Assembly: GCF_003614975.1 (NCBI RefSeq)
Contig: NZ_QZWI01000026.1
Span: 1-34,983 of the forward strand
Direction: 5' to 3'
Origin: Rahnella bruchi
GTDB lineage: Bacteria; Pseudomonadota; Gammaproteobacteria; Enterobacterales; Enterobacteriaceae
Length of the DNA: 34,983 nt
The notes below the pieces were generated by a model. The model saw only the letters and a program-made list of their open reading frames with translations. It ran no database searches and was not told the DNA's origin. The translations under genes were made by a program, and so were the position numbers. Shown piece by piece: positions 3,979 to 22,144 of this stretch. The stretch's first letter is position 1. Each line of letters opens with the position of its first letter.

Positions 3979-4114
3979 TTACTTACCTCGATAACGAAGT
4001 TTGAAAGTTTTTCGACAGTTTTAAATAATGTTTCAGTTTGTTAAATGGCAGGCAAGCCAGTGAATTCAGATGGATATAAAAACCGGCATGCCGCCATTTC
4101 ACCGTGTTACGTTA

Positions 4115-6923: not shown

Positions 6924-6926
6924 TAT

Positions 6927-6972
6927 AAGTCACATTAAAGAATGTAGCATAGACAAGTTGTGACTCATAGTC
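6927..6972. promoter_or_regulatory. Extra C-box-like sites
   Basis: TTGTGACTCATAGTC (6958-6972) repeats exactly the C-box found before the controller gene at 7241-7255. A related sequence lies inverted at 6927-6937 (TAAGTCACATT, read on the other strand as AATGTGACTTA). The dyad GACT-CAT-AGTC is the core of controller-protein operators in type II restriction-modification systems. These copies front no intact gene, so they may be relics of a lost restriction-modification promoter or a duplication. Confidence 0.45.
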
Positions 6973-7240
6973 TTCACGTGATTCCATAATCTCTTTTGGT
7001 GTTTTTTTACCTAAAAAGTGAGCTGAATCGAATAAGTTATGATAACGGTGAAAAAAACGTTGCAAAGGAATACGCATTTCTACAAGCCGAAGCTCCGCTG
7101 CATGCACAGCAGAGCGTGCTTAACCGAAGTGAATGTGCATCAGGTGAGGGCACATGTGCTATTGCTAAAATAACGCGAGTGACGCGACGTCAGGTTCTTA
7201 TGTTCGGGCTGGTTCACGATATAGAAACAGAATAGGGTGT

Positions 7241-7262
7241 TTGTGACTCATAGTCCGTGGTC
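7241..7262 (+). promoter_or_regulatory. C-box operator of the controller gene
   Basis: TGTGACTCATAGTCCGTG (7242-7259) closely resembles the left half of the operator of type II controller proteins (TGTGACTTATAGTCCGTG as I recall for Esp1396I-like C proteins). It is followed by TGAT, the start of the second half-site. It lies about 35 bp before the controller ATG, the position where C proteins bind to activate and then repress their own promoter. Confidence 0.65.
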
Positions 7263-7292
7263 TGATAAGCATCTAGGCGTCATTTTGGCGGC

Positions 7293-7514
7293 ATGATAAA
7301 TACCTTTAGCATTCAGGCCCGTTTCGGAGCCCACATTAAAAAACTCAGGCTACAGTCTGGTCTGTCTCAGGAAGCTTTTGCTGATAAATGTGGATTAGAT
7401 CGCACGTATATCAGTGGAATTGAGCGCGGTGTAAGGAATCCAACGCTACAAGTGATCAGTGTTTTAGCGGGTGGATTAGAAGTGAAAATCAGCATGTTGT
7501 TCGACTTCAAATAG
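7293..7514 (+). CDS. Controller (C) protein, XRE-type helix-turn-helix
   Basis: This 73-residue single-domain regulator has a full XRE helix-turn-helix (about 11-66) with the SQEAFADKCGLDRTYISGIERGVRNP core. LDRTYISGIERG is characteristic of C proteins that time expression of type II restriction-modification genes. A matching C-box lies just upstream. The ATG has only a weak Shine-Dalgarno; many C genes are leaderless. Normally a restriction gene follows at once, but here about 200 bp of non-coding DNA leads to a truncated type I hsdR instead. The regulator therefore appears orphaned. A phage-type XRE repressor is the alternative, but the operator match argues against it. Confidence 0.75.
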   Translation: MINTFSIQARFGAHIKKLRLQSGLSQEAFADKCGLDRTYISGIERGVRNPTLQVISVLAGGLEVKISMLFDFK

Positions 7515-7700
7515 TTTTTGGCCGAAAACCACCTGTGATTTTTTTTGAATTTTTTATAACAGGATAAGCGGCAAACACATCTCATCTGTTGCTTTTTGCC
7601 TCATGTGTCTGCCCTCAAAGTACGGTCCTGCTCTACGCATAGAATGAATGGCAGTGAAAACAACGAACTTTGCTGAAATGATAAAATGACTTAATTATCA

Positions 7701-9059
7701 CGATATCCCCTCGTCAATATGGTCATGACCCGTGGACAGGATGATGAGCTGGACATGTATAACCTGCTCGGTACCAAAGACTACCGCAGGGAACTGGACA
7801 AGCAGTTCAAAAATCCCCATTCCAACTTCAAGATAGCCATCGTGGTAGACATGTGGTTGACCGGTTTTGACGTACCCGAGCTTGATGCCATCTACATCGA
7901 TAAACCTCTGCAAAAGCATAACCTGATCCAGACCATCTCCAGGGTTAACCGACGCTTTGAGGGGAAAGAGAAGGGGTTAGTGGTCGATTACATCGGTATC
8001 AAAAGCCGGATGAATCTGGCATTGGCGATGTATTCGAAAGCGGATAAATCCAACTTTGAAGATGTTCAACAGTCACTGACCGAGGTGCGTAATCACCTGC
8101 ATCTGCTTGCACAGGTATTCCATACTTTTGACAGCCGTCATTACTTCTCAGGGACGCCCACTTTACAGCTGGAATGCCTGAACCGTGCCGCTGAGTTTGC
8201 GCTCCAGACCAAGAAGATTGAGCTGCGGTTTATGGGACTGGTAAAACGCCTGAAAGCCGCTTATGACGTTTGCGTCGGCAGTGAAGAGATCACTCAGGAT
8301 GAGCGTGAGCGAATTCATTTTTATCTGGCTGTGCGTTCTATTGTCTATAAGCTTACTAAGGGCGATGCGCCTGACACCGCGCAGATGAACCAGAAAGTGC
8401 GTGAGATGATCGCCGAGGCGTTAAAGGCCGATGGTGTCGAGGAAATATTCACGCTCGGTGAAGATAAAGCGGAGACCATCGACATCTTTGATGACGAGTA
8501 CATGGCGCGTATCAGCAAAATTAAGCTGCCTAATACCCGGATGCAATTGCTGCAAAAGATGCTGGCAAAAGCCATTAGCGATTTTCAAAAGATTAACCAG
8601 CTGCAGGGAATTAACTTCTCCAAGCGTTTCCAGGCCTTGGTTGAACAGTACAACCAGCGTAAGGAAAATGACGTCCTCAACGGCGAAGAGTTTGACGCTT
8701 TCACCCAACAAATGACCGATATGGTCTACGACATCAAAACCGAGATGATGTCATTTGCCGATATTGGCATCGATATGGAGGAGAAGACCTTTCTCGATAT
8801 CCTGGCGCTTATGTGCCAGAAGTACGACTTCACCTACGACGACGACAAGATGTTGGCCTTGGCTAGAGATATGAAGGTGATCGTCGATGACAGCGCCCAA
8901 TACCCAGACTGGAGCAATCGCGACGACATCAAGGCGAAGCTGAAAGTAGACCTTATTCTGCTGCTGCGCCGCTATGGTTTCCCTCCTGTAGCCAATGATG
9001 AAGTTTATAAAAGTGTGCTTGAGCAGGCGGAAAACTTTAAGAAGTATCTACAAAGCTGA
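7701..9059 (+). pseudogene. hsdR: 3' fragment of type I restriction endonuclease subunit HsdR
   Basis: About 450 residues remain of a subunit that is normally near 1000. The fragment starts inside the second RecA-like helicase domain (YPLVNMVMTRGQDD, LLGTKDYRRELD). It keeps motif V (VVDMWLTGFDVP) and motif VI (QTISRVNRRFEGKEKG) and then the helical C-terminal domain that binds HsdM, ending FKKYLQS. The PD-(D/E)xK nuclease domain, Walker A and DExH box are gone, so it cannot restrict. The homologous frame opens at about 7701, right after the XRE-gene region, and an internal ATG sits at 7719. No hsdM or hsdS is present. A deletion or recombination joined it to the controller gene. Confidence 0.88.
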
Positions 9060-9202
9060 TTAATTAACTTGCGATTTGGCATAGATACTCATTATGAAGG
9101 CATGACTCACATCGGGCTTACTCGTCAACGGGGAGCAGGACATACCGGGGAAGATATTTACTGTCGAATTTGTGTAGTAGTTTGGGCAGTTGTGCAAAAG
9201 AG

Positions 9203-9361
9203 GTGAACTTAGAGCCCGCGGTTGCTGATTTTTACCGCTCTTTCATGCCCGACCTACTTATAAGTGAATTCACCTGTCAGCGTATTCCTACTCTTACGTT
9301 ACTGATCTATTTCTCTGAAGTAATTAAAAAGGCGGAGGAATTAAAAAGGGAACAACAGTAG
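9203..9361 (+). CDS. Short hypothetical ORF, doubtful
   Basis: A GTG at 9203 could open a 52-codon frame reading VNLEPAVADFYRSFMPDLL and ending KKAEELKREQQ. Composition is protein-like but there is no clear ribosome binding site and no family I know. It follows the hsdR remnant and is followed by the long inverted repeat at 9399-9433. It could be the tail of a displaced gene. Confidence 0.2.
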   Translation: MNLEPAVADFYRSFMPDLLISEFTCQRIPTLTLLIYFSEVIKKAEELKREQQ

Positions 9362-9398
9362 CAATTAAATCACTGATGGGGGCGGAATAGGTTGTTTC

Positions 9399-9433
9399 AG
9401 ACAATTCGCCGAACGTTCGTCGGCGAATTGTCT
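9399..9433. terminator. Perfect 14-bp inverted repeat after the hns-like gene
   Basis: AGACAATTCGCCGA (9399-9412) and its exact complement (9420-9433) flank a 7-base loop. It lies 11 bp beyond the stop codon of the minus-strand hns-like gene and after plus-strand remnants, so it can act as a shared terminator. No long U-run follows on either strand. Confidence 0.55.
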
Positions 9434-9444
9434 AAAAAGAGGTG

Positions 9445-9843
9445 TTATATGGCAAAGTCTTCCAGTGATTTGCCTGAATCAAGAAGGTCTTTGATAGCCT
9501 TAGGAGTGCGCCCCTGGCCGGTCCATGTTTTTGTCTCACCATTTTCATCAGTATACTTATATTTAGCCGGGCGAGGCTCACGTGTCTTCTTAGATTTACC
9601 CGCTGAAAGTGAACCTAGGAGTTCAGTTGGATCGATGCCATCTTCAAGCATTTGTTGACGATATTTTTCAAGTTTAGCTTTACGTTCAGTAATTTCAGCA
9701 GATGCAGCTTCATCTTCCTGACGGCGATCTTCAACGATTGAGGTAAGTTTTTCTAAAATTTCATTCAAAGTCGCAAGATCGACTTCACGAGCCTGTGCAC
9801 GCAATGTACGAATATTATTTAATGTTTTTAGAGCTTCTGACAT
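9445..9843 (-). CDS. hns: H-NS-family nucleoid protein (paralogue)
   Basis: The start at 9843 gives [20 protein letters not shown], the standard H-NS N-terminus, behind an AAGGTGG site. The 132-residue protein has the coiled-coil dimerisation region (about 1-65), a second oligomerisation helix, a charged linker ([13 protein letters not shown]) and the C-terminal DNA-binding motif TWTGQGRTP with the AT-hook-like QGR. H-NS itself has 137 residues; the linker and coiled coil here diverge from the housekeeping protein. Its place in an IS-rich defence island suggests a horizontally carried paralogue (Hfp/Sfh-like) that silences AT-rich neighbours and forms mixed oligomers with host H-NS. A single genomic hns locus cannot be excluded from this window alone. 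Confidence 0.9.
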
Positions 9844-10261
9844 GAGTGCCACCTTACAGTTTAATATGGGGTTATTCATTCATACGATACATCAGTAAAT
9901 ATATCATGAAATCAAATATGCTCAATTTATTTATCTCTGTTGTCATCATTTAGAAATAATATGTCATTCTTTTTTTACGCCCAGTTTCTAGAGGTTTATC
10001 CCTCTTAGGAAATAACTGAAACCCCATTCTGCACTGGGCTGGATGACGCCTTACGACTTTGCCAAAAATCTGCCGGTTGTCAGAATATGCAGCCAGAATG
10101 AAGCCGGTTATTCTTGAATATGAATGGGGCTCATACGGGGCGCGTGTCAACAATATTATCCTCAGCCCCTGGAGTGGTTCTCACATCGGGGTAGTTTACT
10201 GTTGTGTGAACTGATTATACGGTGGGCCAGTCTGTAACAACTGAAACTTGCCAGGTGCGAC
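9844..10261. other. AT-rich hns leader and gene-poor stretch
   Basis: The first 110 bp are very AT-rich and should hold the hns-like promoter. A minus-strand frame (9950-10153) ending GRKKRMTYYF is open for 67 codons but has no ribosome binding site and no family I recognise. The region ends where the decayed IS110-type transposase frame becomes readable. Confidence 0.35.
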
Positions 10262-10931
10262 ACGATCCGCAACTTTCTGAATGCCAAAGGTGGCCGCACA
10301 ATGGCTCTTACCGAGCAACGTATTGCGAGTTTTGATAACGCGCTCCCATTGACGACAGACCCGTGTGTTATAGAGGCCAATGCTTCGATGGCAACAGCAC
10401 TGGCGACATAAAGTAAAGCCGTGATTGAAATCATCACAACCTAAGAAGAACGAATCGAAACGTTGTTTGACGCATTGCCAAATGCGGGGCAGTATCAATT
10501 ACTTCCCGGCATTGGCCAATGGCCGGGATCCTAGATGCTTGCTGCACTTTGTGATAACCGTGACCGGTTTAACAGCGATGAAGAAATTCAAAACTACGCA
10601 GGTATTGCACCGCTGACAGATTGAAGTGGCCAGATATTCTGGGTTCACTAGCAATGGCAATGGCAATGGCAATGGCAATGGCAATGGCAATGGCAATGGC
10701 AATGGCAATGGCAATGGCAATGTGCGAAGTTCGTCAGGCAGACCTTTGTTGAATGGGCTGCCAAAACGATTAACTCATCATACTGGGCCTGACTTTATTA
10801 CCCGGGCCTGCGAGAAAAAGGGAAGTCGCATTAATTAGCCATCGGGACTCTGGCGTTTTGATGGATCAGGATCTTTTAACGTTGCCCGAAGACCCGAATC
10901 CGCTACGGCGAAGCGAAATATTTGCTGTCAC
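10262..10931 (+). pseudogene. Decayed IS110-family transposase (C-terminal half)
   Basis: One continuous frame, broken by at least seven stop codons, reads as the C-terminal half of an IS110/IS1111-type transposase. It contains TIRNFLNAKGGRTMALTEQR, then LFDALPNAGQYQLLPGIG (the helix-hairpin-helix part of Transposase_20). RDRFNSDEEIQNYAGIAPLTD and KFVRQTFVEWAAKTINSSYWA follow, and it ends near GEAKYLLSL. The DEDD catalytic N-terminus is missing. The frame is kept through the hexanucleotide array at 10651-10722, which sits where the family has a Trp-rich WVHWRW-like segment. The element is long inactive. Confidence 0.85.
10651..10722. repeat. Twelve perfect copies of a hexanucleotide
   Basis: GCAATG is repeated 12 times without a single mismatch over 72 bp. 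In the transposase frame the unit reads TGG CAA (Trp-Gln), so it grew from one or two codons of the parent gene; in another frame it encodes Gly-Asn. Expansion in units of six keeps the frame. Such arrays change length by slipped-strand mispairing. Confidence 0.97.
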
Positions 10932-11411
10932 TCAATCCATCCAGGGCACAAGCTCACCAATATAAGTGTGTGTGCAACAGCGGCAAGTCACCTTTACGTC
11001 TTTTCCTGTAATCGAAGAGTTTACCTGTTGCAGAATTCCCCTCCCATCGACATACAGGCCCGGATAATAGCTGCTTTCGCCAATGCACACTAAATCCCTT
11101 CGCTCATGCTCATGTAGCGCGACCAACCAGAATACAGGCACTGTGGTATCAAGACGGCCACATACTTCGCTGAATATCTTATCCCACGGTTTTCCAATCT
11201 GTTTGACCAGAAAGTAAAATAATGGCGTGTAGTCCCGGCCACGCTTTTGCCTGCCATGCATTGTCTCGCGCTTTGCCAGTAGCTCATCTCCGACTTTTTT
11301 ACGATTGCGTTCCCAACGATACTCAGCACCTGGATTATTAGAATGATGCCGCGTAGTCGTGTTGACACTACGATAAAGTTTAAAGGATTTGTGTAGTTGA
11401 TGAGAACGCAT
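10932..11411 (-). CDS. Conserved hypothetical protein, possible zinc-binding tail
   Basis: The 159-residue protein starts after a well-spaced AGGAG. Visible features are a basic N-terminus (RWERNRKKVGDELLAKRETMHGR), a central DYTPLFYFLVKQIGKPWDKIFSEV helix region, a FWLVALHEHERRDLVCIGESSYYPGLYVD block, and a C-terminal CRCCTHTYIG cluster that could bind a metal. I recall similar proteins in scattered bacteria but know no function. The gene abuts the IS110 remnant tail to tail, with only one base between them, and faces away from the NIPSNAP gene. Codon use is enterobacterial rather than the AT-rich style of the defence operon. Confidence 0.6.
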   Translation of the reverse strand: MRSHQLHKSFKLYRSVNTTTRHHSNNPGAEYRWERNRKKVGDELLAKRETMHGRQKRGRDYTPLFYFLVKQIGKPWDKIFSEVCGRLDTTVPVFWLVALHEHERRDLVCIGESSYYPGLYVDGRGILQQVNSSITGKDVKVTCRCCTHTYIGELVPWMD

Positions 11412-11702
11412 CGCTCAATCTCCTGCATCCTTTCTTTAGTGAGCCGTTAACTCCTACTGGAGCCATATTCGATAGTGTGTGATTGTATGAACAATGGCAT
11501 GGTTAAAGCAGTCTCATTCTGCTGAAATAGCTCCCCGCTAACAACTACAAAAAAGTGCGCCTCGGGCTCTCAGAATACGCTCAGACCCAGCATGGCGAGG
11601 AAAGAATCGGTATCAATCAGCACGCTCCGCCAATACTGACAAGTTCAACGGCTCTACGTGCAATAATTCGCTATGATGAAAAAAATGAAAAGGATATCGA
11701 AG

Positions 11703-12032
11703 ATGAAAACAGTCGAATTTCTGCTGTACACCCTAAAACCCGGCACTGGGAAAGACTTCCACAGAATTATGACGGAGCAGAGTGCTCCACTTCACCGTTT
11801 AGCGGGTATGGATATTATTTCTTTTGGTATGTCGGCACATGACAACGACGCATACTATCTGATCAGAGCTTATGACAGCCTATCCCAGCTCAAATCTTCT
11901 CAGGAATCTTTTTACAACAGTGAAGAATGGCGTCTTGGCCCCCGGCAGGCCATTATTGATAGGGTCAGCGTCAGCGTTAAATCGGTGCTTATGCTTAACA
12001 ACGGTGCCATTGATAATTTACGATCCAATTGA
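11703..12032 (+). CDS. NIPSNAP-like dimeric alpha-beta barrel protein
   Basis: The ATG at 11703 follows AAAAGGATATCGAAG; an in-frame ATG 10 codons earlier lacks such a site. The 109-residue product has the ferredoxin-like layout of NIPSNAP/ABM proteins: strand VEFLLYTLKPG, helix FHRIMTEQSAPLHRL, strand MDIISFGMSAH, and DAYYLIRAYDSLSQLKSSQESFYNSEEW, which closes with RLGP. Such small proteins are dimers, often tied to oxidative or degradative metabolism; no specific reaction can be given. A GCCGC/GCGGC hairpin (12055-12068) follows 23 bp after the stop and may terminate it. It stands alone between mobile-element remnants. Confidence 0.7.
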   Translation: MKTVEFLLYTLKPGTGKDFHRIMTEQSAPLHRLAGMDIISFGMSAHDNDAYYLIRAYDSLSQLKSSQESFYNSEEWRLGPRQAIIDRVSVSVKSVLMLNNGAIDNLRSN

Positions 12033-12054
12033 CTGTGCATCTATGCGTATAAAA

Positions 12055-12068
12055 GCCGCGCAGGCGGC
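12055..12068 (+). terminator. Weak hairpin after the NIPSNAP-like gene
   Basis: GCCGC-GCAG-GCGGC forms a GC-rich 5-bp stem followed by ATTTATATT. It is short, but its position after the stop codon fits a weak intrinsic terminator. Confidence 0.4.
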
Positions 12069-12169
12069 ATTTATATTGCCTGCCCGACACAGCAAAGTTT
12101 TTAGGCAGAACTGTTAACTCTTCCCCGAGCCGTTCACCCGATGATCTGAGGTATCTCACCGGCAGCTTT

Positions 12170-12184
12170 GAGCGAGGAACGGAC
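12170..12184 (+). repeat. Direct repeat, left copy, flanking the defence operon
   Basis: GAGCGAGGAACGGAC recurs as GAGCGAGGAGCGGAC at 18539-18553 (14 of 15 identical), 6.4 kb away, so the pair brackets the three-gene operon. It may be a short dispersed repeat used in recombination, or a coincidence of a common intergenic motif. Confidence 0.4.
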
Positions 12185-12249
12185 CTTCGTGATTGGCAGC
12201 TTGGTGATTTACTAGTGTGAATGTTTGTTAATCATTTGGGAGCAGGTCT

Positions 12250-12332
12250 GCGGGCTTGCGAAACGGGAAATATGAAGAAAAAATAACCGACATTACTAAC
12301 TGAAGATTGTATCTAATCCTGGGGGCAAGTCA
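12250..12332 (+). mobile_element. 3' remnant of an IS3-family element (orfB tail and right end)
   Basis: The frame AGLRNGKYEEKITDITN followed by TGA is the C-terminus of an IS407-group orfB. The terminal 46 bp (12287-12332, ending GGGGGCAAGTCA) match the right end of the IS copy at 19947-19992 at 41 of 46 positions. Nothing else of this element is present. It lies 230 bp before the defence operon and marks the left junction of that segment. Confidence 0.85.
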
Positions 12333-12490
12333 CAAACATGGAATGAAAGAACATCAACTCAACGCACCGTTGACAAAGATTGACCGTGAGTGTTCTGACG
12401 GAGAAAGAAGATAGTTATTGAGTGCGATGAAGAGAGTGCATTGCCCTGCATAAGGATGTACAGTCGTAATTGACCACTACGATAATTAAA

Positions 12491-12515
12491 ATTCAAGTTA
12501 AAGAATAGCTTGAAT
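12491..12515. promoter_or_regulatory. Inverted repeat in the promoter of the three-gene operon
   Basis: ATTCAAG (12491-12497) and CTTGAAT (12509-12515) form a perfect dyad with an 11-bp spacer, about 50 bp before the first start codon in very AT-rich DNA. It is a candidate operator; no dedicated regulator is encoded in the operon. Confidence 0.35.
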
Positions 12516-12564
12516 GAACTGTGCATATTAAAATTCAACCAATGCCATTTAGGTCGTAAAACAC

Positions 12565-15261
12565 ATGAATAGCGTACAAATAGAAGAAAATGTCAAGAGT
12601 TTGGTGAAACAAGTATCAAGCCAAAAAATTTCGAAAGATGATTTTGTCTACGAACTGTTGCTGGCATACGGACATCGTAAGTCGGTAGTGAACCGTGTTA
12701 AGTCTGGTGAGCGTAACCTAGCGAAGGATGCTGGTGAGGTGATCTTAAAGCGTCATCTTTACTTTAAACCATGTACATCAAACTTGTTTGCTGAAATAGA
12801 TGCTCTCAAAAACAGCAAAACGGTTGCTACCAACAAGATTCGTTTTGTTGTTATTACTGATTTCTCTCAGCTTATTGCTATTGATACAAAGACTCAAGAC
12901 ACGCTTGATATCGAGCTTGGTCAGCTACCGAAACATTTTGATTTCTTCTTACCGTGGGCAGGTATGGAGAAAATGGTTTATCGCGGTGAAAACCCTGCGG
13001 ATGTCAAAGCGGCTGAGAAGATGGCGGATTTTTTTGACCATATCAAAGCAACTAACTACCCAGCGAATGCCACGAAAGAACAGTTGCATGATTTGGTAGT
13101 ATTTCTCAACCGCCTACTTTTCTGTTTCTTTGCAGAAGACACAAAAATCTTCTCTGAGAACCAATTCACAAACCTTCTGAATCAACATACGCAAGAAGAT
13201 GGAATCGATCTACAAGGCGTGTTTGAACGTTTGTTTTACGTATTGGATACGCCAGCACATCAGCGTAATGATTTTCCAAGGTATCTTAATGATTTTCCGT
13301 ATGTTAACGGTGGGTTATTTAAGCGCCAGATTAGAGTGCCAACATTCGATGCCAAAGCTCGTCGTATGTTGCTTGATTCTGGTCAATTAGATTGGGCAGA
13401 TATAAACCCTGATATTTTTGGTTCGATGATTCAAGGTGTTGCCGACCCTGAAACACGAAGCAAAATGGGGATGCACTACACCTCAGTATCAAACATCATG
13501 AAAGTGATTGAACCGCTGTTCTTGGATGATCTTTATGAAGAGTTTGATAAGTGCAATGACAATATCAACAAACTGAAGAAGCTTCAGGTTCGACTAAGCC
13601 GCATTAAGTTCTTTGACCCTGCGTGTGGTTCAGGCAACTTTTTGATTATTACGTACAAAGAAATTCGTGAATTAGAAATTGAGATCCTAAAGCGCATTCG
13701 TGAGCTTGAGTCAGAGTCTGAATCAGGAATTATAGGATTATTTGATGAATCTCATTCTGCGATTCACCTAGACCAATTCTATGGCATTGAGCTCGATGAT
13801 TTTGCTCATGAGATGGCAATTCTTTCATTATGGTTAGTTGATCATCAAATGAACATGGTGTTTGAGACTGAGTTTGGTTACACAGCACCAACGCTCCCAT
13901 TAAAGCAAAGCGGGCGGATTGTTGCAGGTAATGCAGTACTGATGGACTGGGAGTTGGTTTGTCCTTGTACCGACTCCGAAGAGGTATATATTTTAGGTAA
14001 TCCGCCATATTTAGGAGGGAAGTATCAATCACCGAACCAAAAGGCTGATATGAAAAAAGCTTTTAGCGGCATAAATAAATTTGGTGAGCTAGACTATATT
14101 GCTTGTTGGTTCTTTAAAGCATCAAAATATATAGCTGAATCTAGTGGCGTTTTTGCTTTTGTATCTACTAACTCGATAAATCAAGGCGCACAAGTCCATC
14201 AATTGTGGCCTTTGATTTTTGATATGGGGTTAGAGATAGGTTTTGCTTATAAGCCATTTGTCTGGAGCAACAATGCTAGAGATAAAGCCGCTGTGATTTG
14301 TACCATACTAGGAATTAGGAAAATAAGCGGTTCACCTAAATCAATATATGAATCCACAAGTAAAAAAAATGTAAAAAATATCAGTGCATATTTAAACGAA
14401 GGCGATAACACAATAGTTAATCAAAGCCTAAAGCCTATATCATTGCTGCCAAAATTAATAACAGGTAATAGCCCTTACGATGGCGGAAATTTAATATTAT
14501 CAATAGATGAAAAAAATTCTCTTTTAGATGCTTATCCTGAAGCAGGCAAGTTTATTAAGCGTCTTTGTGGTTCACAGGACTTTTTAAATGGACAAGAACG
14601 GTGGTGTATTTGGATCTCTGAAGAAGAATACGAAGAAGCTTACTCAATCCCTCCCTTAAAAGAACGAGTTGAACTCGTACGTGAGTTCCGTATCAACGGT
14701 GGTGATGTTGCTAGAGGGCTAGCAGATAAACCTTATAGGTTTAGATATACGCATCAAGCAAAAGAGCACCTGATAATAATACCACGAGTATCATCAGAAA
14801 GAAGAAAGTATATTCCTTTTGGGTTTTTAGGTGCTGAAATTATTGTTTCAGATTCAGCCCAAGCTATTTATGATCCTGAAGTATGGGTATTCGGCATACT
14901 AAGTTCTCGTCTACATATGTCTTGGGTGAGGCTGACAGCAGGAAGATTGAAAAGTGATTACAGATATTCATCTGCTATGTGTTACAACACATTTCCTGTG
15001 CCTGAACTAACTCTAGCAGATAAAGAAGATATTATGGAGGCAACGATTGGTGTTATTTCAGCAAGAGAAATGCATGCTGAATTTTCATTGGCAAAATTAT
15101 ATGATCCAGAAAGAATGCCTGCAAATTTGAAAGAAGCTCATGTTTTACTAGATGAGTGTATAGAAAGAATTTTCTTTGGTAAGACCATTCCCGAAGAAGA
15201 GGAGCGTCTTGAAATTCTTTTGAGAATGTATGAAAAAGTAATGGGTAAAGTGAATGCCTGA
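12565..15261 (+). CDS. MmeI-like adenine-specific DNA methyltransferase
   Basis: The 898-residue protein resembles type IIL (MmeI-like) enzymes. It has an N-terminal region of about 150 residues, then a helical spacer (QLPKHFDFFLPWAGMEK) and a gamma-class methyltransferase core. S-adenosylmethionine-binding motif I is FDPACGSGNFL (350-360), and catalytic motif IV is GNPPY (N479-Y482) for N6-adenine methylation. A likely target-recognition region follows (about 650-870). In true MmeI enzymes the N-terminal domain is a PD-ExK nuclease; here the matching stretch (AGEVILKRHLYFKPC) shows no D...ExK, so cleavage in cis looks lost. The stop overlaps the helicase start by 8 bp. Base and codon use are AT-rich, unlike the neighbours. 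AGGT lies before the ATG. The methyltransferase call is firm; the nuclease loss is my reading. Confidence 0.9.
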   Translation: MNSVQIEENVKSLVKQVSSQKISKDDFVYELLLAYGHRKSVVNRVKSGERNLAKDAGEVILKRHLYFKPCTSNLFAEIDALKNSKTVATNKIRFVVITDFSQLIAIDTKTQDTLDIELGQLPKHFDFFLPWAGMEKMVYRGENPADVKAAEKMADFFDHIKATNYPANATKEQLHDLVVFLNRLLFCFFAEDTKIFSENQFTNLLNQHTQEDGIDLQGVFERLFYVLDTPAHQRNDFPRYLNDFPYVNGGLFKRQIRVPTFDAKARRMLLDSGQLDWADINPDIFGSMIQGVADPETRSKMGMHYTSVSNIMKVIEPLFLDDLYEEFDKCNDNINKLKKLQVRLSRIKFFDPACGSGNFLIITYKEIRELEIEILKRIRELESESESGIIGLFDESHSAIHLDQFYGIELDDFAHEMAILSLWLVDHQMNMVFETEFGYTAPTLPLKQSGRIVAGNAVLMDWELVCPCTDSEEVYILGNPPYLGGKYQSPNQKADMKKAFSGINKFGELDYIACWFFKASKYIAESSGVFAFVSTNSINQGAQVHQLWPLIFDMGLEIGFAYKPFVWSNNARDKAAVICTILGIRKISGSPKSIYESTSKKNVKNISAYLNEGDNTIVNQSLKPISLLPKLITGNSPYDGGNLILSIDEKNSLLDAYPEAGKFIKRLCGSQDFLNGQERWCIWISEEEYEEAYSIPPLKERVELVREFRINGGDVARGLADKPYRFRYTHQAKEHLIIIPRVSSERRKYIPFGFLGAEIIVSDSAQAIYDPEVWVFGILSSRLHMSWVRLTAGRLKSDYRYSSAMCYNTFPVPELTLADKEDIMEATIGVISAREMHAEFSLAKLYDPERMPANLKEAHVLLDECIERIFFGKTIPEEEERLEILLRMYEKVMGKVNA

Positions 15262-17197
15262 TTTAGTCAACGTAACCTATGCTCAAACAGGTGAAAGCAC
15301 CAACAACGATGAGATGGGAATGCGAGCCATGCAGGCTCGTGCTTTTGAGCATCGCGCAAGCCAGTATTTATTGATTAAAGCCCCACCTGCTTCCGGTAAA
15401 TCTCGTGCTTTAATGTTCATTGGCTTGGATAAACTTCACAATCAGGGTATCGACAAAGTTATTGTCGCTGTTCCTGAGCGTTCTATCGGTGGCTCATTTG
15501 GATACACTGAGCTAACTAAATTTGGTTTCTTTGCGGATTGGAACATCAATCCGCATTACAACCTTTGTACGTCTGCCAGCAATCAAAGCAAAGTTAAAAT
15601 CTTTAAGGAGTTTTTAGATAGTGATGAGCGCATTTTAATCTGTACTCACGCTACCTTGCGCTTTGCATATCAAGAGTTAGAAGACTTCGCTTTTGACAAT
15701 ATCTTATTGGCAATCGATGAGTTCCATCATGTTTCTGCTGATGGTGACAACGTGCTGGGTGATGTGTTGCGTGCGCTCATTGAGAACAGTACCGCACACA
15801 TCGTTGCGATGACAGGTTCTTACTTCCGTGGCGATAGCGTATCAATCCTGACTCCAGAAGATGAGATGAAGTTTGATAAGGTCTCTTTTAACTATTACGA
15901 GCAACTGAACGGCTATCAGCACCTTAAGTCTTTGGGTATTGGTTACCACTTCTATAAAGGTCATTACCTCACTGCAATTGCAGAGGTGCTAGATACTGAT
16001 AAGAAAACGATTGTCCATATCCCCAACGTAAACTCTGCCGAGTCAGGAAAAGATGATAAATATGAGCAAGTCGCAGCTATCTTAGACATTATTGGTGAGC
16101 ATCAATTCACCGACCCAGATACTGGTGTCATTCATATAAAACGTAAAGAAGATGGAAAAATCATTAAAGTTGCCGACCTCGTATGGGATGAAAACGATAG
16201 AGAGAAAACACAGGCATTTTTACGTGATATTGACCATGAAGATGATATTGATATCATCATTGCGCTGGGCATGGCAAAAGAGGGTTTTGACTGGAGTTTT
16301 TGTGAGCATGCTTTGACGATCGGCTACCGCAACTCTTTGACGGAAATTGTGCAGATTATCGGTCGGTGTACTCGTGATAGTCATAACAAGGCTCATGCTC
16401 AGTTTACTAATTTGATTGCTGAACCTGATGCTTCAAGTGATCAAGTCAATTATGCTGTAAATAATATGCTTAAGGCAATCACTTGTTCTCTTCTTATGGA
16501 GCAAGTATTGGCACCAAACTTTAAGTTTAAAACAAAAAGTCCTATAGATAAGGAACCAACACCGCCGGGGGTGATCAGCATTGGTGGTTTGAAAGAGCCA
16601 AGCACCAAGCGAACTAAGCAAATATTAGAAACAGACCTTGATGACTTAAAAGCTTCGATTTTGCAAGATGACAACATTGTTAAAGCATCTGCCGCAGGTC
16701 ATGACCCTGAAGTTATTAATAAGGTGCTGATCCCTAAAATTATAGAGAAAAAATACCCAGACCTCTCTAAAGAGGAGATAGAGGAAATACGTCAGCGAGT
16801 TGTTGTGGACTCAGCGCTTTCAGCATCTGAAATTAAAGAGGAGGGTGGCAAGAAGTTTGTTCGCATGGCTGATAAGTTCATCAATATTGATGAGCTGCAT
16901 ATTGACCTTATCGACCAAGTAAATCCGTTTCAGAAAGCGTTTGAGATCCTATCAAAAGCGGTTAACACAGATACACTTAAGTTGGTTCAAGACTCTATTG
17001 AATCGACTCGTATGCAAATGTCTAAAGAGGAGGCCATTGCGTTGTGGCCGAAAGTTCAAGCGTTTGCAAATGAGAACAATAGGAATCCAGACCTTAACTC
17101 TCGTAATGGGCGTGAGCGTGAGTTGGCTCAGTGCGTTATATATCTGCGTCGTCTTGCACAAGAGCAGGTAGCAAATACTCAAAAAGAGGCTATGTAA
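15254..17197 (+). CDS. DEFH-box SF2 helicase/translocase of the defence operon
   Basis: The 647-residue protein carries superfamily-2 motifs: Walker A APPASGKS (43-50), motif Ia ICTHATLRF, Walker B AIDEFHH (D155-H158), motif III MTGSY (186-190), motif V ALGMAKEGFDW (338-347) and motif VI QIIGRCTRD (367-375). It is related to restriction-type DEAD helicases but has no nuclease motif of its own. A basic segment and helices (460-570) follow. The tail (about 594-637) contains an F-x5-R-x-P module that recurs in the next protein. It overlaps the methyltransferase gene by 8 bp, and its TAA is followed at once by the next ATG, so the three proteins are probably made in fixed ratio. Likely role: ATP-driven DNA translocation coupled to cleavage by the third subunit. 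Confidence 0.9.
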   Translation: MPDLVNVTYAQTGESTNNDEMGMRAMQARAFEHRASQYLLIKAPPASGKSRALMFIGLDKLHNQGIDKVIVAVPERSIGGSFGYTELTKFGFFADWNINPHYNLCTSASNQSKVKIFKEFLDSDERILICTHATLRFAYQELEDFAFDNILLAIDEFHHVSADGDNVLGDVLRALIENSTAHIVAMTGSYFRGDSVSILTPEDEMKFDKVSFNYYEQLNGYQHLKSLGIGYHFYKGHYLTAIAEVLDTDKKTIVHIPNVNSAESGKDDKYEQVAAILDIIGEHQFTDPDTGVIHIKRKEDGKIIKVADLVWDENDREKTQAFLRDIDHEDDIDIIIALGMAKEGFDWSFCEHALTIGYRNSLTEIVQIIGRCTRDSHNKAHAQFTNLIAEPDASSDQVNYAVNNMLKAITCSLLMEQVLAPNFKFKTKSPIDKEPTPPGVISIGGLKEPSTKRTKQILETDLDDLKASILQDDNIVKASAAGHDPEVINKVLIPKIIEKKYPDLSKEEIEEIRQRVVVDSALSASEIKEEGGKKFVRMADKFINIDELHIDLIDQVNPFQKAFEILSKAVNTDTLKLVQDSIESTRMQMSKEEAIALWPKVQAFANENNRNPDLNSRNGRERELAQCVIYLRRLAQEQVANTQKEAM

Positions 17198-18367
17198 ATG
17201 GATGATTGGTTAAAAGCTATTCTAGCTTCTGATACGCAAGGCTTATTAAAAACAAAGCCTAAATCATCGGCACCTACAGCCGATGACCACCTAATTGCTA
17301 AGTTTAAGCAAATTAATGAATTTTTTGATAAACATGGGAGAAAACCGCAAGCTAATCGTAGCAATCCGATTGAGCTGATGCGCAGCAAAAGCCTAGAATC
17401 TATCCGCAGTAACGAGCATCATTGTCGTGCGTTGAAACAATACGATATTCATGGGCTTTTGCCACGATTTGAAGAACCTAAACCGGCTTCTATTGAAGCG
17501 ATATTTGCGGATGATATGTTAGGCATATTAGATTTACCAGATGACAGTATCTTTAATTTAAAACACGTTAAAAAGACCTTGGGAATGCCCCAGCATATTG
17601 CCAAGCGTAAGAAGTGCGCCAACTTTGATGAATATGAGCCTCTGTTTCGGCAATGTCACGCTGATCTTAAAGCGGGTGAAATGGAGGCTGTTCAATTCAC
17701 CGGTGAGCAGCAAATTAAAAAGGGTATGTTCTTCATTCTTCACGGGATAACTTGCTATGTCTCTCATATGGAAGAGAGGCAGAAGAAGAATGGCAAGATA
17801 AACGCTCGATTACATCTAGTTTTTGAGAACGGTACAGAATCAGACATGCTGCTGCGCTCACTTGCTACTGAGTTGTATAAAGATGAAACAGGTCGTCGTA
17901 TTTTAGCTAAAAGTGATACAGAGTTGGATGAATTGCTGAACATCACTCATGACGATAAAAAATCAGGTTACATTTATATTCTCAAATCTTTAAGTAATGA
18001 ACCAGAGATCAGTAGAGTGAATAATTTATATAAGATTGGTTATTCCACCACTCCCGTAGTGCAGCGTATTGCTAATGCAGAGAAGGAACCAACTTATTTA
18101 ATGGCATCAGTTCAGTTAGTTTCTGAGTTTGAGTGCTACAATATGAAAACACATAAGTTTGAAGGGTTGCTACATACCTTCTTTGGACATTCCTGTTTGG
18201 ATGTAAAATTGGCTGATCATAAAGGAATTGTTCACACACCGAGAGAGTGGTTTATTGCTCCCCTAGAATGCATCAAGCAGGCAATACAAATGCTTATTAC
18301 AGGTGACATTGTCAACTATCGATATGATGCAATAACGCAAGAAATAGTAGAGAGAACGACACCTTGA
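17198..18367 (+). CDS. GIY-YIG nuclease-family protein (T5orf172-type)
   Basis: The 389-residue protein ends in a GIY-YIG fold of the T5orf172/MUG113 kind. It has GYIYILKS (257-264), LYKIGYS (277-283), the conserved Arg (R290), the catalytic-type Glu in KFEGLLHTFF (E322) and the closing REWF (349-352). All core catalytic positions are therefore present. The N-terminal 75 residues include KQINEFFDKHGRKPQ, matching a module at the helicase C-terminus; residues 90-250 show no domain I know. It begins on the base after the helicase stop codon. Inferred role: the endonuclease of the system, acting on unmodified DNA delivered by the helicase. T5orf172 domains also occur in phage proteins of unknown role, so activity needs proof. 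Confidence 0.85.
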   Translation: MDDWLKAILASDTQGLLKTKPKSSAPTADDHLIAKFKQINEFFDKHGRKPQANRSNPIELMRSKSLESIRSNEHHCRALKQYDIHGLLPRFEEPKPASIEAIFADDMLGILDLPDDSIFNLKHVKKTLGMPQHIAKRKKCANFDEYEPLFRQCHADLKAGEMEAVQFTGEQQIKKGMFFILHGITCYVSHMEERQKKNGKINARLHLVFENGTESDMLLRSLATELYKDETGRRILAKSDTELDELLNITHDDKKSGYIYILKSLSNEPEISRVNNLYKIGYSTTPVVQRIANAEKEPTYLMASVQLVSEFECYNMKTHKFEGLLHTFFGHSCLDVKLADHKGIVHTPREWFIAPLECIKQAIQMLITGDIVNYRYDAITQEIVERTTP

Positions 18368-18445
18368 GTATATCGGACGTTGTAATAGCTGCATCTAAAC
18401 CGGATACTTCACCAGTAAGACATAGACCTATATTTAAGGTGTGTC

Positions 18446-18458
18446 TGACCCGCTCCCC
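18446..18458 (+). mobile_element. IS left-end-like tip
   Basis: TGACCCGCTCCCC matches the first 13 bases of the IS3-family element at 18772 (TGACCTGCTCCCC) at 12 positions; similarity fades after that. With the right-end remnant at 12332 it would bracket the defence operon between IS ends in the same orientation. Thirteen bases alone are weak evidence. Confidence 0.35.
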
Positions 18459-18538
18459 ACGGATCAATTCAGACTGTCTAAAGCAACGTCTGCTCATGGC
18501 ACAGTGCGGGCAAGCTCAATGAGCTAAGGGTCCGCAGT

Positions 18539-18553
18539 GAGCGAGGAGCGGAC
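18539..18553 (+). repeat. Direct repeat, right copy
   Basis: GAGCGAGGAGCGGAC matches 12170-12184 with one mismatch. It is also part of a small dyad with GTCCG at 18529-18533, so it may belong to a family of short intergenic hairpins. Confidence 0.4.
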
Positions 18554-18575
18554 ATGAAAGCCATAGTGGAACCTG

Positions 18576-18771
18576 TTAACAGTCACCAGCAGAACCAGTG
18601 ACAGCCCTCATGAAGGCTTTACCTAACTCAGTAAAATAATACTCATGAGTATTAGTGCAAAGGCCTGCACGATCTAAACTGGCAAAAGTCATATTTAGCA
18701 GTCGCAGATCAATCCCATTTTCTAATTGTTGTTTTTTAAAATCATTCCAGCTTTTGGGTCTTCCTGGCTCC
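18576..18771 (-). pseudogene. C-terminal fragment of an unknown gene cut by the IS
   Basis: The frame EPGRPKSWNDFKKQQ ... LTFASLDRAGL-like ... YYFTELGKAFMRAV runs without interruption from the IS left end to a stop at 18576. It looks genuinely coding, with a winged-helix-like TELGKAF segment, but I cannot name it. No 5' part is recognisable beyond the right end of the IS, and no target-site duplication links the two sides, so DNA was probably lost. Confidence 0.45.
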
Positions 18772-18842
18772 TGACCTGCTCCCCGTTGATTAGTACACCC
18801 CGATTTTCGTAATGTCTTTATAAGCCACATGAGGACATCCCC

Positions 18843-19106
18843 ATGAAGAAGCGTTTTTCCGACCAACAGATCATCAGTATTCTCCGCGAGGCCTAAGCCG
18901 GAGTATCCGCCCGTGAACTCTGCCGCAAGCACGCCATTTCCGATGCCACGTTTTACACTTGGCGTAAGAAGTATGGTGGTATGGAGATGCCTGAGGTTAA
19001 GCGCCTGAAGTCGCTTGAAGAAGAGAACGCCAGACTCAGGAAGCTGCTTGCCGAAGCCATGCTGGATAAGGAGGCGCTTCAGGTGGCTCTGGGGCGAAAG
19101 TACTGA
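18843..19106 (+). pseudogene. IS3-family orfA with internal stop
   Basis: The frame MKKRFSDQQIISILREA is followed by TAA at 18894 and then continues as AGVSARELCRKHAISDATFYTWRKKYGG with the leucine-zipper [25 protein letters not shown] to the normal stop, 87 codons in all. It is the HTH-containing DNA-binding half of the transposase. A single base change (probably GAA to TAA) explains the stop. Confidence 0.9.
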
Positions 19107-19963
19107 CGACAGACCAGAAGCGGGAAGCCGTGGTGTTGATGTGCGATGCGACCGTTCTGTCGCAACGTCGTGCCTGCAGACTCACAGGTTTATCCCTGTC
19201 GACCAGCCGCTATGAGGCTCAGCGTCCGGCTGCAGATGAACATTTATCAGGGCGCATCACTGAGCTGGGACTGGAGCGCAGGCGTTTTGGCTACCGTCGC
19301 ATCTGGCAGTTGCTGCGCCGTGAAGGGCTTCATGTTAATCATAAGCGCGTGTACCGGCTTTATCACCTCAGTGGCCTGGGCGTAAAACGCAGAAGACGTC
19401 GTAAAGGGCTGGCAACAGAACGTCTGCCGCTGCTCCGCCCGGCGAAGCCCAATCTGACCTGGTCGATGGATTTCGTCATGGACGCATTGGCCACCGGTCG
19501 CAGGATCAAGTGCCTTACCTGCGTGGACGACTTCACGAAGGAATGCCTGACGGTCACTGTTGCCTTTGGGATTTCAGGTGTGCAGGTCACGCGTATTCTG
19601 GACAGCATTGCGCTGTTTCGCGGCTACCCGGCGACGATAAGAACTGATCAAGGCCCGGAATTTACCTGCCGCGCGCTCGATCAATGGGCCTTTGAGCATG
19701 GCGTAGAGCTGCGGCTTATCCAGCCCGGCAAGCCTACACAGAACGGATTTATTGAGAGTTTTAACGGACGCTTTCGCGATGAATGCCTGAATGAACACTG
19801 GTTCAGTGACGTCAGTCATGCCAGGAAAACCATCAGTGAATGGCGTCAGGATTATAATGAGTGACGCCCGCACTCCGCGCTGAATTATCAGACGCCGTCT
19901 GAATTTGCGGCGGCCTGGAGAAAGGGTAATTCTGAGAGTGAAGGATCCGACATTACTAAGTGA
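19103..19963 (+). pseudogene. IS3-family orfB (DDE transposase) with internal stop
   Basis: The frame begins in the -1 phase where orfA ends ([10 protein letters not shown]), as in programmed frameshifting of IS3 elements. It shows HTH_21, then the rve integrase core: [10 protein letters not shown] (first D), TDQGPEF (second D) and the ...[17 protein letters not shown] block with the catalytic E. A TGA at 19862 interrupts after RQDYNE; RPHSALNYQTPSEFAAAW and the natural C-terminus ITK follow. All DDE residues lie before the stop, but the truncated protein would lose the conserved tail. Confidence 0.92.
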
Positions 19964-20062
19964 GCGTTGTATCTAATCCTGGGGGCAGGTCATGACGTCA
20001 CATCCTGTAGGAGCTTGTTTTCTGATTGAATCACTACGGACGCCCCTCATATAAATGTATTC

Positions 20063-20159
20063 TTCTTAGCTTAGAATTATAATTTATCTGTACAGCTAAG
20101 AAAAAGAAAAAAGCTAATCCTTAGCTAAAAAACATTGTTTAGCTGTTCAGATAAGGATT
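20063..20159. promoter_or_regulatory. Cluster of TTAGCT/AGCTAA inverted repeats
   Basis: TTCTTAGCT (20063-20071) pairs with AGCTAAGAA (20094-20102). Straight after, AATCCTTA-GCTAAA (20116-20129) pairs with TTTAGC (20138-20143) and TAAGGATT (20152-20159). The AGCTAA core appears four times in 80 AT-rich bases, just before a small frameshifted reading frame. It could be an operator array or a structured leader. Confidence 0.4.
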
Positions 20160-20164
20160 GTATT

Positions 20165-20253
20165 ATGGATAATGAAAACGCTGCAAGCAGGGCACTAAGC
20201 AAGAATTAAGAAAGGGCATTCGCATAGAGTATGTAGACATTACGAGTGGTTAA
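20165..20253 (+). pseudogene. Frameshifted mini-gene (about 29 codons)
   Basis: ATG at 20165 follows AAGGATTGTATT. The frame MDNENAASRALSK meets a stop, but adding one base restores ELRKGIRIEYVDITSG and a stop at 20251. The restored peptide of about 29 residues looks coding. A 1-bp deletion is the simple explanation; the parent gene is unknown to me. It could instead be the 5' end of a longer lost gene. Confidence 0.3.
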
Positions 20254-20307
20254 ATGACCCAGGAGCTGTTCATTGACAACCGAGTCGGTTTGCAAAGTCC
20301 TCTCCTG

Positions 20308-20354
20308 GCTGTGAGTTCAATCAGTGTGTTGCATCCATCGGTTGAACTCACAGC
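20308..20354. terminator. 13-bp perfect inverted repeat after the LysR gene
   Basis: GCTGTGAGTTCAA (20308-20320) pairs exactly with TTGAACTCACAGC (20342-20354) around a 21-base loop, 21 bp downstream of the minus-strand LysR stop codon. No U-run follows. It is probably a terminator or RNA-stabilising hairpin. Confidence 0.45.
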
Positions 20355-20375
20355 ACAGAGCGGACTATCTCTATG

Positions 20376-21266
20376 TCAATTTACGAGTAACGATTCAGCC
20401 TGCAACCAGCGCTCAAAATTTTGCAATGCAATTTCATTGATTCCTGTTTCAACCGGTTTTACCAAACAAAATGTTTTGCTCAGTTGTTCTGATTGCGGCC
20501 AGGGTGCCACAAGCGATCCTCTGTTTAGCTCTTTTTCGACGTAGATGCGCGGCACCATCGCCACGCCTTGACCCGCCAGTACTGCAGCTATCGCCATTTC
20601 ATGAAGGTCATAACGGACACCTTGCGCCGGGTTATCAAGGACTATCCCACTTTGCTCGGCATAATGCAGCCAGGCTTCTGGGTTCTGCCGCCGGTGAATA
20701 CGGGGGAGCGTATTTAGCTGTCCAACGATGTTGTTTCCGGTTAACAGGTCGGGATGGCACACCGGCACCAGCCTCTCCTCAAAGAGGACCTGCATGCGCA
20801 TGCCTGCCCAGGCCGGGTGCTCAAAATGAATCACCGCGTCAAAGCCGCTCCCGGTGAGAATGAAGGGATCGGTTCTGGCCGCGATATTCAATGTGATGTC
20901 CGGGTATAAGGATTGGAAGCCGCTAAGGCGGGGGATAAGCCAGCGGCTGCAAAACGTTGGCAGTACAGCAATTTCCAGACTTCTACTGCCTTCAGGCATT
21001 CCCATCACATATTGAGTCTCCCGCTCGAGTCGTTCGAGCATTTCTCGTACGTGATGGGCGTAGTGTGTCCCCACCGTATTGAGCTTTACCCGGGTTCCCG
21101 TCCGGTCAAACAATTTGCACTCAAGCAGAGACTCCAGCCGGGCAATCTGGCGGCTGATAGCGCCTTCCGTCAGTGATAATTCTGCCGCAGCCCGCGCAAA
21201 ATTACCGTGCCTGGCAGCAGCTTCAAACGCCTGAAGTGAAGCACTGCTGGGAATTTTTCTGCGCAT
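20376..21266 (-). CDS. LysR-type transcriptional regulator (GcvA-like)
   Basis: The 296-residue protein has a typical winged HTH at 7-66 (LQAFEAAARHGNFARAAAELSLTEGAISRQIARLE) and a substrate-binding domain of the GcvA kind (LEIAVLPTFCSRWLIPRL, FDAVIHFEHPAW, GQGVAMVPRIYVEKEL). It diverges from the three-gene unit starting at 21430, and the shared 163-bp promoter holds three copies of the half-site GTCACTAA. It most likely controls that unit and itself. The effector is unknown; the enzyme regulated is a metallo-beta-lactamase-fold hydrolase. An AAGG site precedes the ATG. Confidence 0.92.
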   Translation of the reverse strand: MRRKIPSSASLQAFEAAARHGNFARAAAELSLTEGAISRQIARLESLLECKLFDRTGTRVKLNTVGTHYAHHVREMLERLERETQYVMGMPEGSRSLEIAVLPTFCSRWLIPRLSGFQSLYPDITLNIAARTDPFILTGSGFDAVIHFEHPAWAGMRMQVLFEERLVPVCHPDLLTGNNIVGQLNTLPRIHRRQNPEAWLHYAEQSGIVLDNPAQGVRYDLHEMAIAAVLAGQGVAMVPRIYVEKELNRGSLVAPWPQSEQLSKTFCLVKPVETGINEIALQNFERWLQAESLLVN

Positions 21267-21299
21267 TAATATTGCCTTATTGAAAGGGTGATATCCGTT

Positions 21300-21384
21300 G
21301 TTAGTGACTAAATGTCACTAACGGTTGAGTTAATATCGATTTATTGCCGGAATTACAACATATAGCATGAGTAAAAGTCACTAA
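21300..21384. promoter_or_regulatory. LysR operator between divergent genes
   Basis: A perfect 9-bp dyad GTTAGTGAC-TAAAT-GTCACTAAC (21300-21322) lies 34-56 bp before the lysR start. A third half-site GTCACTAA (21377-21384) lies nearer the forward gene. A strong dyad plus a weaker activation site is the common layout of LysR-type regulators. Confidence 0.65.
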
Positions 21385-21429
21385 GGAGGGCCAGCGTGTA
21401 CCTTTTAATCTACAGGCGGAGGTGAGCCA

Positions 21430-21972
21430 ATGTTCTACATCGTGGAGTGCAGCTATACCGATCCTGAAAGTGAGAAAGTGTGGAATGACTTTTACAGTCT
21501 GGAAAAGCTGCCCGCGCTGATCTCGGTCATTGGATTTAGTACTTCCCAGCGCTTTCAGTCCCTGACGCCAGGCTGCCCCGTATATCTCGCCATTCATACG
21601 GTGAAAGATGCGCAGGTGATAACCAGTAAGGAGTACAAGCTGAAAGGGGGCGGTAATTTTTCACGCTGGCAAAAGCACATCACTGATTGGCACCGTAACC
21701 TGTATGAGGGTGAAGGCATGGCACCCGCCGTATCCAGTGATGAATTCCTCCTGCTTAGCACTCACCCTTTGAGTGTTATTGAAGGGCAGGGATATCGGGC
21801 ACTCGAGATGCAAGCGTCAGGGTTGGACAGAACGCACGACCGACGTATTGCATACGTGGTAAAGCGTGATACTGCAGCGCAAATAGCAGATGTGCCCGGC
21901 GTATACCTCTATAAGCCACTGACGGCGCAACTGACCAATTTGCCTAAAACCAGAAGGGACCGGAATTCATGA
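21430..21972 (+). CDS. Uncharacterised dimeric alpha-beta-barrel-like protein
   Basis: The 180-residue protein starts after GGAGGTGA. MFYIVECSYTDPESEKVWNDFY followed by LPALISVIGFSTSQRFQ has the strand-helix-strand pattern of ferredoxin-like EthD/ABM folds. A second half (RALEMQASGLDRTHDRRIAYVV) may repeat it, giving an internal duplication. No catalytic residues can be assigned. It is the first gene of a LysR-controlled unit whose last gene is a metallo-beta-lactamase-fold hydrolase, so a role in breakdown or detoxification of a small organic compound is plausible but unproven. Confidence 0.65.
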   Translation: MFYIVECSYTDPESEKVWNDFYSLEKLPALISVIGFSTSQRFQSLTPGCPVYLAIHTVKDAQVITSKEYKLKGGGNFSRWQKHITDWHRNLYEGEGMAPAVSSDEFLLLSTHPLSVIEGQGYRALEMQASGLDRTHDRRIAYVVKRDTAAQIADVPGVYLYKPLTAQLTNLPKTRRDRNS

Positions 21973-22144
21973 CAACATGCCCAATCTGACGTTTTATTTA
22001 TTCCAATAACTCGCGCGAAGGTTCACTGATGTAAGCGATTAATAAAGGGCTACAGAGCATGTTGCGCAAGGACTCTGCGTGCAGATTCGAAAAATGTTCG
22101 TGTCACCGGTGTGGAGATAAAGCCTGGATGTGGGGATCCGCTCT

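Follow-up and report, generated by a model that had tools for sequence, protein, structure and literature searches.

The stretch of DNA analyzed here (hereafter the window) comprises 34,983 nucleotides of contig NZ_QZWI01000026.1 of Rahnella bruchi (assembly GCF_003614975.1). It harbors a three-gene operon encoding a DNA methyltransferase, a helicase, and a GIY-YIG protein, designated A, B, and C. An earlier note, made from the sequence alone, described the operon as resembling a split restriction-modification (RM) machine and as a candidate anti-phage system. The three genes and the part of A that was found to be swapped are as follows:

12565-15261, + strand: gene A, MmeI-family adenine methyltransferase (DnmA/YeeA-like), 898 amino acids (aa)
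14401-15009, + strand: target-recognition domain (TRD) of A, the swapped part, PF20466 match
15254-17197, + strand: gene B, superfamily 2 (SF2) helicase/translocase (YeeB-like), 647 aa
17198-18367, + strand: gene C, T5orf172/MUG113 GIY-YIG protein (YeeC-like), 389 aa

The coordinates bore out the gene junctions described in the earlier note, as A and B overlap by exactly 8 bp and B and C are joined with 0 bp spacing. The window trio has no insert between A and B. A contained the complete MmeI domain set of Pfam (MmeI_N, hel, Mtase, TRD, and C), scoring 343 bits for MmeI_Mtase and 267 bits for MmeI_TRD, and matched the solved MmeI (PDB 5hr4) with an E-value of 8.4e-186, which confirms it as an MmeI-like adenine methyltransferase. 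Its methylase motifs were DPACGSGNF (motif I) and NPPY (motif IV). B matched DEAD, ResIII, and Helicase_C, and the Pfam scan gave no nuclease domain for it; with Walker A GKS at residues 48-50, a DEFH box at 155-158, and QxxGRxTR at 367-374, it is the DEFH-box SF2 helicase without nuclease motifs that the note had described. The motif residues checked in B were invariant in 145 of 145 aligned copies. C matched MUG113/T5orf172 (GIY-YIG) and comprises a helical module (residues 28-74), an SH3-like middle domain (approximately 159-237, a weak match), and the GIY-YIG domain (approximately 255-370). Its GIY-YIG-type residues (G257, Y260, K279, G281, R290, and E322) were intact, again as noted, and invariant in all 138 aligned copies. 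The AlphaFold model of C had a predicted local distance difference test score of 90.8 and a predicted template modeling score of 0.51, and the placement of its domains is unsure because of the latter value.

B also carries a small helical module at residues 590-636, which was related to residues 28-74 of C (hhalign probability of 95%, E-value of 3.7e-8; no more than 0.75% in any of eight control pairs of segments). The helical module of C is encoded by a 95-aa gene of its own, placed between B and C, in four loci (L035, L036, L066, and L149). From these alignments, we infer that the module common to B and C is a docking module. Compared with the copies of Escherichia coli MRE162 and Vibrio renipiscarius, the ratio of nonsynonymous to synonymous substitutions (dN/dS) was approximately 0.03-0.04 for B, C, and the N-terminal half of A, with a high dS for C (1.4-1.5), and this codon-level comparison shows purifying selection on B and C.

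The gene set is a known one, and the trio is likened here to the DnmA-YeeB-YeeC cluster of Bacillus subtilis, for which Morgan et al. in 2009 reportedly suggested a Type I-like RM role. According to two papers (PMC9973331, PMC7261158), dnmA (yeeA) encodes an MmeI homologue that lacks the nuclease motif, yeeB a helicase, and yeeC a T5orf172/GIY-YIG protein; the gene order is conserved in many bacteria, DnmA methylates GACGAG, and a Type I-like RM role has been proposed for the cluster. The window likewise has, on the same strand, an MmeI-homologous methylase without a restriction endonuclease motif, followed by the SF2 helicase as the next gene and the T5orf172/GIY-YIG protein as the second, and this match is one of gene set and description. 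The two differ in that the window copy lies between pieces of insertion sequences (ISs), whereas YeeB and YeeC of B. subtilis are said to be shortened and inert. The earlier note had left it undecided whether the trio was already named; it corresponds to this published cluster, and its standing as a new system is largely lost, while the reading as a split RM system is favored by the sequence evidence given below.

The trio was conserved across diverse bacteria. A scan of named genomes gave 558 confirmed stretches, of which the best 80 were kept; in these, A was located 5' of B in 72 of 80 loci overall and in all 67 that had 3 kb or more of upstream sequence; the eight misses had less than 2.5 kb upstream. 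One of these eight, a Sulfurimonas metagenome-assembled genome (L070:1156-7016), has the gene order B-C-A rather than A-B-C. C was located 3' of B in 76 of 76 loci with at least 1.3 kb downstream. Of 398 genomes sampled from the phylum, 25 had a match to B, including the one that carries the window. One of them, G337 (E-value of 8.5e-4), was rejected as a family member, as its neighborhood lacked A, B, and C. In the other 23 genomes, C followed B on the same strand in every case, and A preceded B in 21, with both misses at contig ends (19 of 19 where the room sufficed). Of 43 loci on viral contigs, those with enough room had A in 29 of 29 cases and C in 38 of 41, and B was truncated in each of the three loci missing C. 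Wherever the flanking sequence sufficed, A and C were both present beside an intact B. Some loci are duplicates: L037 equals L062, L161 lies inside L225, L166 lies inside both L226 and L227, and L167 equals L179 in the compared parts. Because the trio was found as a unit in more than 100 loci, its association goes beyond chance, and the conservation of the neighborhood on which the candidate depended holds strongly.

Record titles among the best 80 included Vibrio, Psychrobacter, Acinetobacter, Sulfurimonas, Flavobacterium and other Bacteroidetes, actinobacteria (Rothia and Microbacterium among them), Bacillus, Planctomycetes, Lentisphaerae, Chlamydiae, Saccharibacteria, and others. The MmeI_TRD family gave a match in B. 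subtilis, used as the control genome, and the same trio was found in B. mediterraneensis (L109), the nearest Bacillus locus looked at. B matched 263 of 72,556 plasmid records, 153 of which covered at least 80% of B, and 118 of the 263 plasmids were predicted to be conjugative. A DNA match to B was found in 100 of 5,426 E. coli genomes and covered at least 80% of B in only four. In PMC9258068, yeeA, yeeB, and yeeC are named inside the blaOXA-23 transposons Tn2006/Tn2009 of Acinetobacter baumannii; judged from the names alone, they may be pieces of the DnmA-YeeB-YeeC family.

A has lost the nuclease of its MmeI relatives. In an alignment of MmeI with a profile of 34 A proteins, the MmeI segment DLFWPGILLIEMK lies opposite the window A segment EVILKRHLYFKPC, and the MmeI nuclease residues, which we take to be numbered D70, E80, and K82, are replaced by E58, K68, and C70 in the window. 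Among 114 operon-linked A proteins, the D70 position was D in four, the E80 position was E in one, and the K82 position was K in none (gaps in 1, 1, and 14, respectively), and the in-cis nuclease motif was missing in all 114. As stand-alone controls, we took ten MmeI_TRD matches above 100 bits from the phylum search that had no adjoining B, leaving out matches below 60 bits; D-x9-ExK was kept in all nine that possess the N-terminus. Operon-linked and stand-alone proteins were fully separate in a tree of 123 tips (support of 1.0). Since the two groups separate so cleanly, the in-cis nuclease was probably lost in a single old event.

The assignment of A as a type IIL/IIG (MmeI) enzyme was rejected, as D-x9-ExK is absent from the polypeptide. 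The PADLOC-DB 2.0 model PDLC03598 calls window A 'REase_MTase_IIG' with 1015 bits (113 bits for DrmMI of the DISARM system), and the same search gave only weak Cas3/PbeA matches for B and none for C, which answers in part the earlier note's suggestion of comparing the trio with defense-system models. With A scored as IIG despite the absent motif, pipelines may miscall the family as type IIG/IIL.

The recognition domain of A was exchanged independently of the remainder of the system. Window A was 91-97% identical to the E. coli MRE162 and V. renipiscarius copies over residues 1-327 (two domains) and 85-100% identical per 40-residue block up to residue 440, and its identity to both fell to 39% in the TRD. 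B was 94-95% and C 88-89% identical to these copies; a few E. coli genomes carry close relatives of the window trio, with identities of 94% for B and 89% for C. DNA similarity to V. renipiscarius extended from 64 bp 5' of A to 13 bp short of the end of C, interrupted across the swapped part, and the tested flanks (6001-12564 and 18368-22000) gave no match to that copy. In the 105 loci where A, B, and C were all complete, 18 pairs had B helicase cores at least 95% identical. TRD identity was 38-67% in 14 of these pairs and 97-100% in four, one of which is the same contig twice, and the pairs share members. Pairwise identities of the A N-terminus correlated with those of B at r = 0.93, and those of the TRD at r = 0.54. 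Taken together, these identities show an exchange of predicted recognition domains on a constant B-C background. Specificity that changes while the restriction machinery stays is the pattern expected of an RM system.

In two viral contigs (L161/L225 and L166/L226), the methylase of A has lost its catalytic motifs and appears to be dead, with NPDSSSGDC at motif I and NTQY at motif IV; NPP of motif IV was retained in the remaining 112 of 114 A proteins. The TRD still scored 237-250 bits (267 for the window and L109), and the methylase domain scored 133-145 bits (343-350 for the window and L109). L161 and L166 were 56% identical in the N-terminal half of A and 74% in the TRD, the only pair with a TRD identity of at least 70% among 1,902 pairs with 50-62% identity in the N-terminal half (mean TRD identity of 40.7, standard deviation of 5.0). 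By the excess of TRD over N-terminal identity, the pair ranked only 103 of 6,441, and each of the top 15 pairs listed consisted of L161 or L166 with another copy, because their N-terminal halves have drifted far. B and C of both loci retained the motif residues checked. A fused double C5-cytosine methylase lies beside each trio:

L225:12622-14421, - strand: fused double C5-cytosine methylase beside L161, facing C
L226:13783-15651, - strand: fused double C5-cytosine methylase beside L166, facing C

These proteins of 599-622 aa contain two C5-cytosine methylase domains, are encoded 28 and 42 bp beyond C, and are 83% identical to each other. In the other 150 loci, whose flanks differed in length and which include L060, a locus lacking the trio, a relative was found only as a weak match in L127. 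The best further relative (L228, 69%) was a pair of separate methylases belonging to a LlaJI-type system that has AAA and RE_LlaJI genes and lacks the trio. PMC1459862 describes LlaJI as having two 5-methylcytosine (m5C) methylases for the asymmetric site GACGC/GCGTC, and it is fused homologues of such a pair that adjoin the methylase-dead trios. The Pfam-scanned neighbors of these trios, a subset of the open reading frames (ORFs) there, included no LlaJI restriction gene, and searches for further copies of the branch found no more. The simplest reading of these sequences is that marking passed from A to the fused m5C methylase, leaving A as a recognition subunit, and a system that hands its marking to another methylase would need marking, i.e., would restrict. 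The branch consists of two contigs of one lineage, and the fused methylase could adjoin the trio by chance or give protection from something else.

At least one ORF of at least 100 aa was present between A and B in 27 of 80 named, 8 of 23 phylum, and 9 of 43 viral loci (one counted ORF, in L120, is a piece of B). A scan of 38 representatives of 80 such ORFs identified RhuM (scanned as the representative of a 10-member cluster), an AlbA_2/HATPase_c_4 protein (from an 8-member cluster), YhcG/DUF1016, Fic/Doc, PDDEXK_4, AAA_13, Abi_C, and a reverse transcriptase, as well as some proteins without a Pfam family; PADLOC models matched some of them (among the matches listed, 25 of 316 families). The A-B slot thus often houses other genes, many of predicted defense type. 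Type I loci likewise hold accessory genes such as RhuM, Fic, YhcG, and AAA_13.

The trio resembles type I systems (HsdRMS) only in its possible working, having a motor protein, exchangeable specificity on a constant background, and an accessory-gene slot. It differs from them in lacking HsdS, in combining methylase and specificity in one chain, and in having a separate, predicted GIY-YIG nuclease instead of the PD-ExK nuclease of HsdR. A type I RM assignment was rejected, as neither a separate HsdS nor a nuclease and motor in one chain was found, in agreement with the earlier note. With MmeI and type IIL enzymes, the trio shares homologous methylase, TRD, and C-terminal domains across A; unlike in those enzymes, the in-cis PD-ExK nuclease is lost, and the helicase and GIY-YIG protein are separate genes. 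The note had further set the trio apart from the defense systems BREX (bacteriophage exclusion) and DISARM (defense island system associated with RM); PADLOC gave no PglZ match for the 10 window proteins scanned, and Pfam gave no DUF1998 for the 20 ORFs scanned, each set being a part of the ORFs of the window.

The gene set, its order, the intact motifs, the loss of A's own nuclease, the TRD exchange against constant B and C, and the purifying selection on B and C are direct observations, and we consider it likely that the trio is a working split RM machine, in which A marks DNA and loads the B motor and the C nuclease. A would bind its site through the TRD and methylate adenine, marking self DNA. 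At an unmethylated site, the N-terminal domain of A (the former nuclease domain of MmeI) would recruit B, which would use ATP to translocate along or remodel the DNA and bring C, and the GIY-YIG domain of C would cut or nick. Contact and complex formation between A and B, translocation, cleavage by C, and phage protection are what we infer. More tentatively, the trio may represent an RM class in which an exchangeable recognition module derived from type IIL is combined with a constant helicase/GIY-YIG pair and the modification chemistry is replaceable; in the L161/L166 lineage, A would be a pure recognition subunit, with marking by the LlaJI-related fused double C5-cytosine methylase.

Several points weigh against a working RM system. 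Cluster deletions in B. subtilis left the plating of three phages and plasmid uptake unchanged, phages show no depletion of the DnmA site, and the cluster is regarded by the authors as a nonfunctional RM relic (PMC9973331, PMC7261158). In V. crassostreae, as cited in PMC9973331, deletions of the dnmA and yeeB homologues reportedly increased sensitivity to some phage subclades, a result in favor of the RM reading, but left others unaffected. C had no homologue of solved structure by sequence, shared ancestry would by itself produce part of the correlation between the A N-terminus and B, and the 114 cases of nuclease loss are probably not independent observations. The negative B. subtilis phage and transformation tests would fit an orphan methyltransferase accompanied by restriction relics, where A methylates and regulates genes and B and C are non-functional, as proposed for that species. 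We consider this quite unlikely for the family, as the motif residues of B and C are invariant, dN/dS is low in the window lineage, and C is absent only at contig ends or beside a truncated B. B. subtilis YeeB and YeeC lack C-terminal stretches found in the Vibrio proteins (PMC9973331), which also argues against extending the relic status to other copies.

A BREX-like defense without cleavage, in which A marks self and B and C block the replication or entry of unmarked DNA with C as a DNA-binding or nicking factor, is unlikely, if somewhat less so than the relic. It would accommodate the undepleted B. subtilis site and the authors' statements that any mechanism must differ from canonical RM and that the T5orf172 domain is largely uncharacterized (PMC9973331), as well as the SH3-like domain of C. 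The invariant GIY-YIG-type catalytic positions speak for cutting instead, and the lack of a growth defect upon dnmA deletion (PMC7261158) rules out A-independent cutting only. The occurrence of B on 263 plasmid records and the IS-flanked position of the window trio are in line with a role in stabilizing mobile elements (selfish RM or addiction) instead of defending the host; such a role is compatible with RM function, the trio is also chromosomal, and we regard this explanation as the least probable.

The split RM reading matters as the family spans many phyla and plasmids, yet PADLOC 2.0 labels only A, and the copy of the model organism seems inert. The mutual exclusivity of in-cis and in-trans nucleases, the TRD swap, and the methylase-dead branch predict that A directs B-C and that B-C work with any TRD, and the close E. 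coli copies make these predictions testable in a laboratory host.

In keeping with the AT-rich codon use and IS flanks described in the earlier note, the G+C content was 39.7% for the trio and 48.3% for the remainder of the window, and the following IS features were found:

18772-19993, + strand: IS3-family element, matching IS3 elements of plasmids at up to 96.6% and ISSen4-like according to one of the records listed (transposase ORF at 19130-19864)
12287-12332, + strand: 46-bp remnant of the IS3 end (19947-19992) in the same orientation, 89% identity by self-BLAST
approximately 10149-10933, strand not assigned: IS110-family (ISEsa2-like) remnant 5' of the operon, approximately 85-87% in two pieces against E. 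coli IS110 records

Further 5', the C-terminal 446 aa of a type I HsdR are encoded at 7719-9059 (+ strand), covering positions 589-1024 of 1029 of the PADLOC REase_I profile; this is a separate truncated remnant. An H-NS-like protein gene (9445-9879, - strand) lies between it and the operon. A gene pair at 2776-5995 (- strand) encodes an anaerobic sulfatase maturase (radical SAM) and a sulfatase; the PADLOC match of the maturase to viperin (pVip, 57 bits) is not to be taken as defense. Convergent ORFs at 938-2420, overlapping by 35 bp, encode a LuxR/SdiA-like regulator and a TraI-like acyl-homoserine-lactone synthase, with family scores under the curated cut-offs. Short imperfect palindromes identified by self-BLAST at 9395-9437, 674-725, and 20296-20366 are possibly repetitive extragenic elements.

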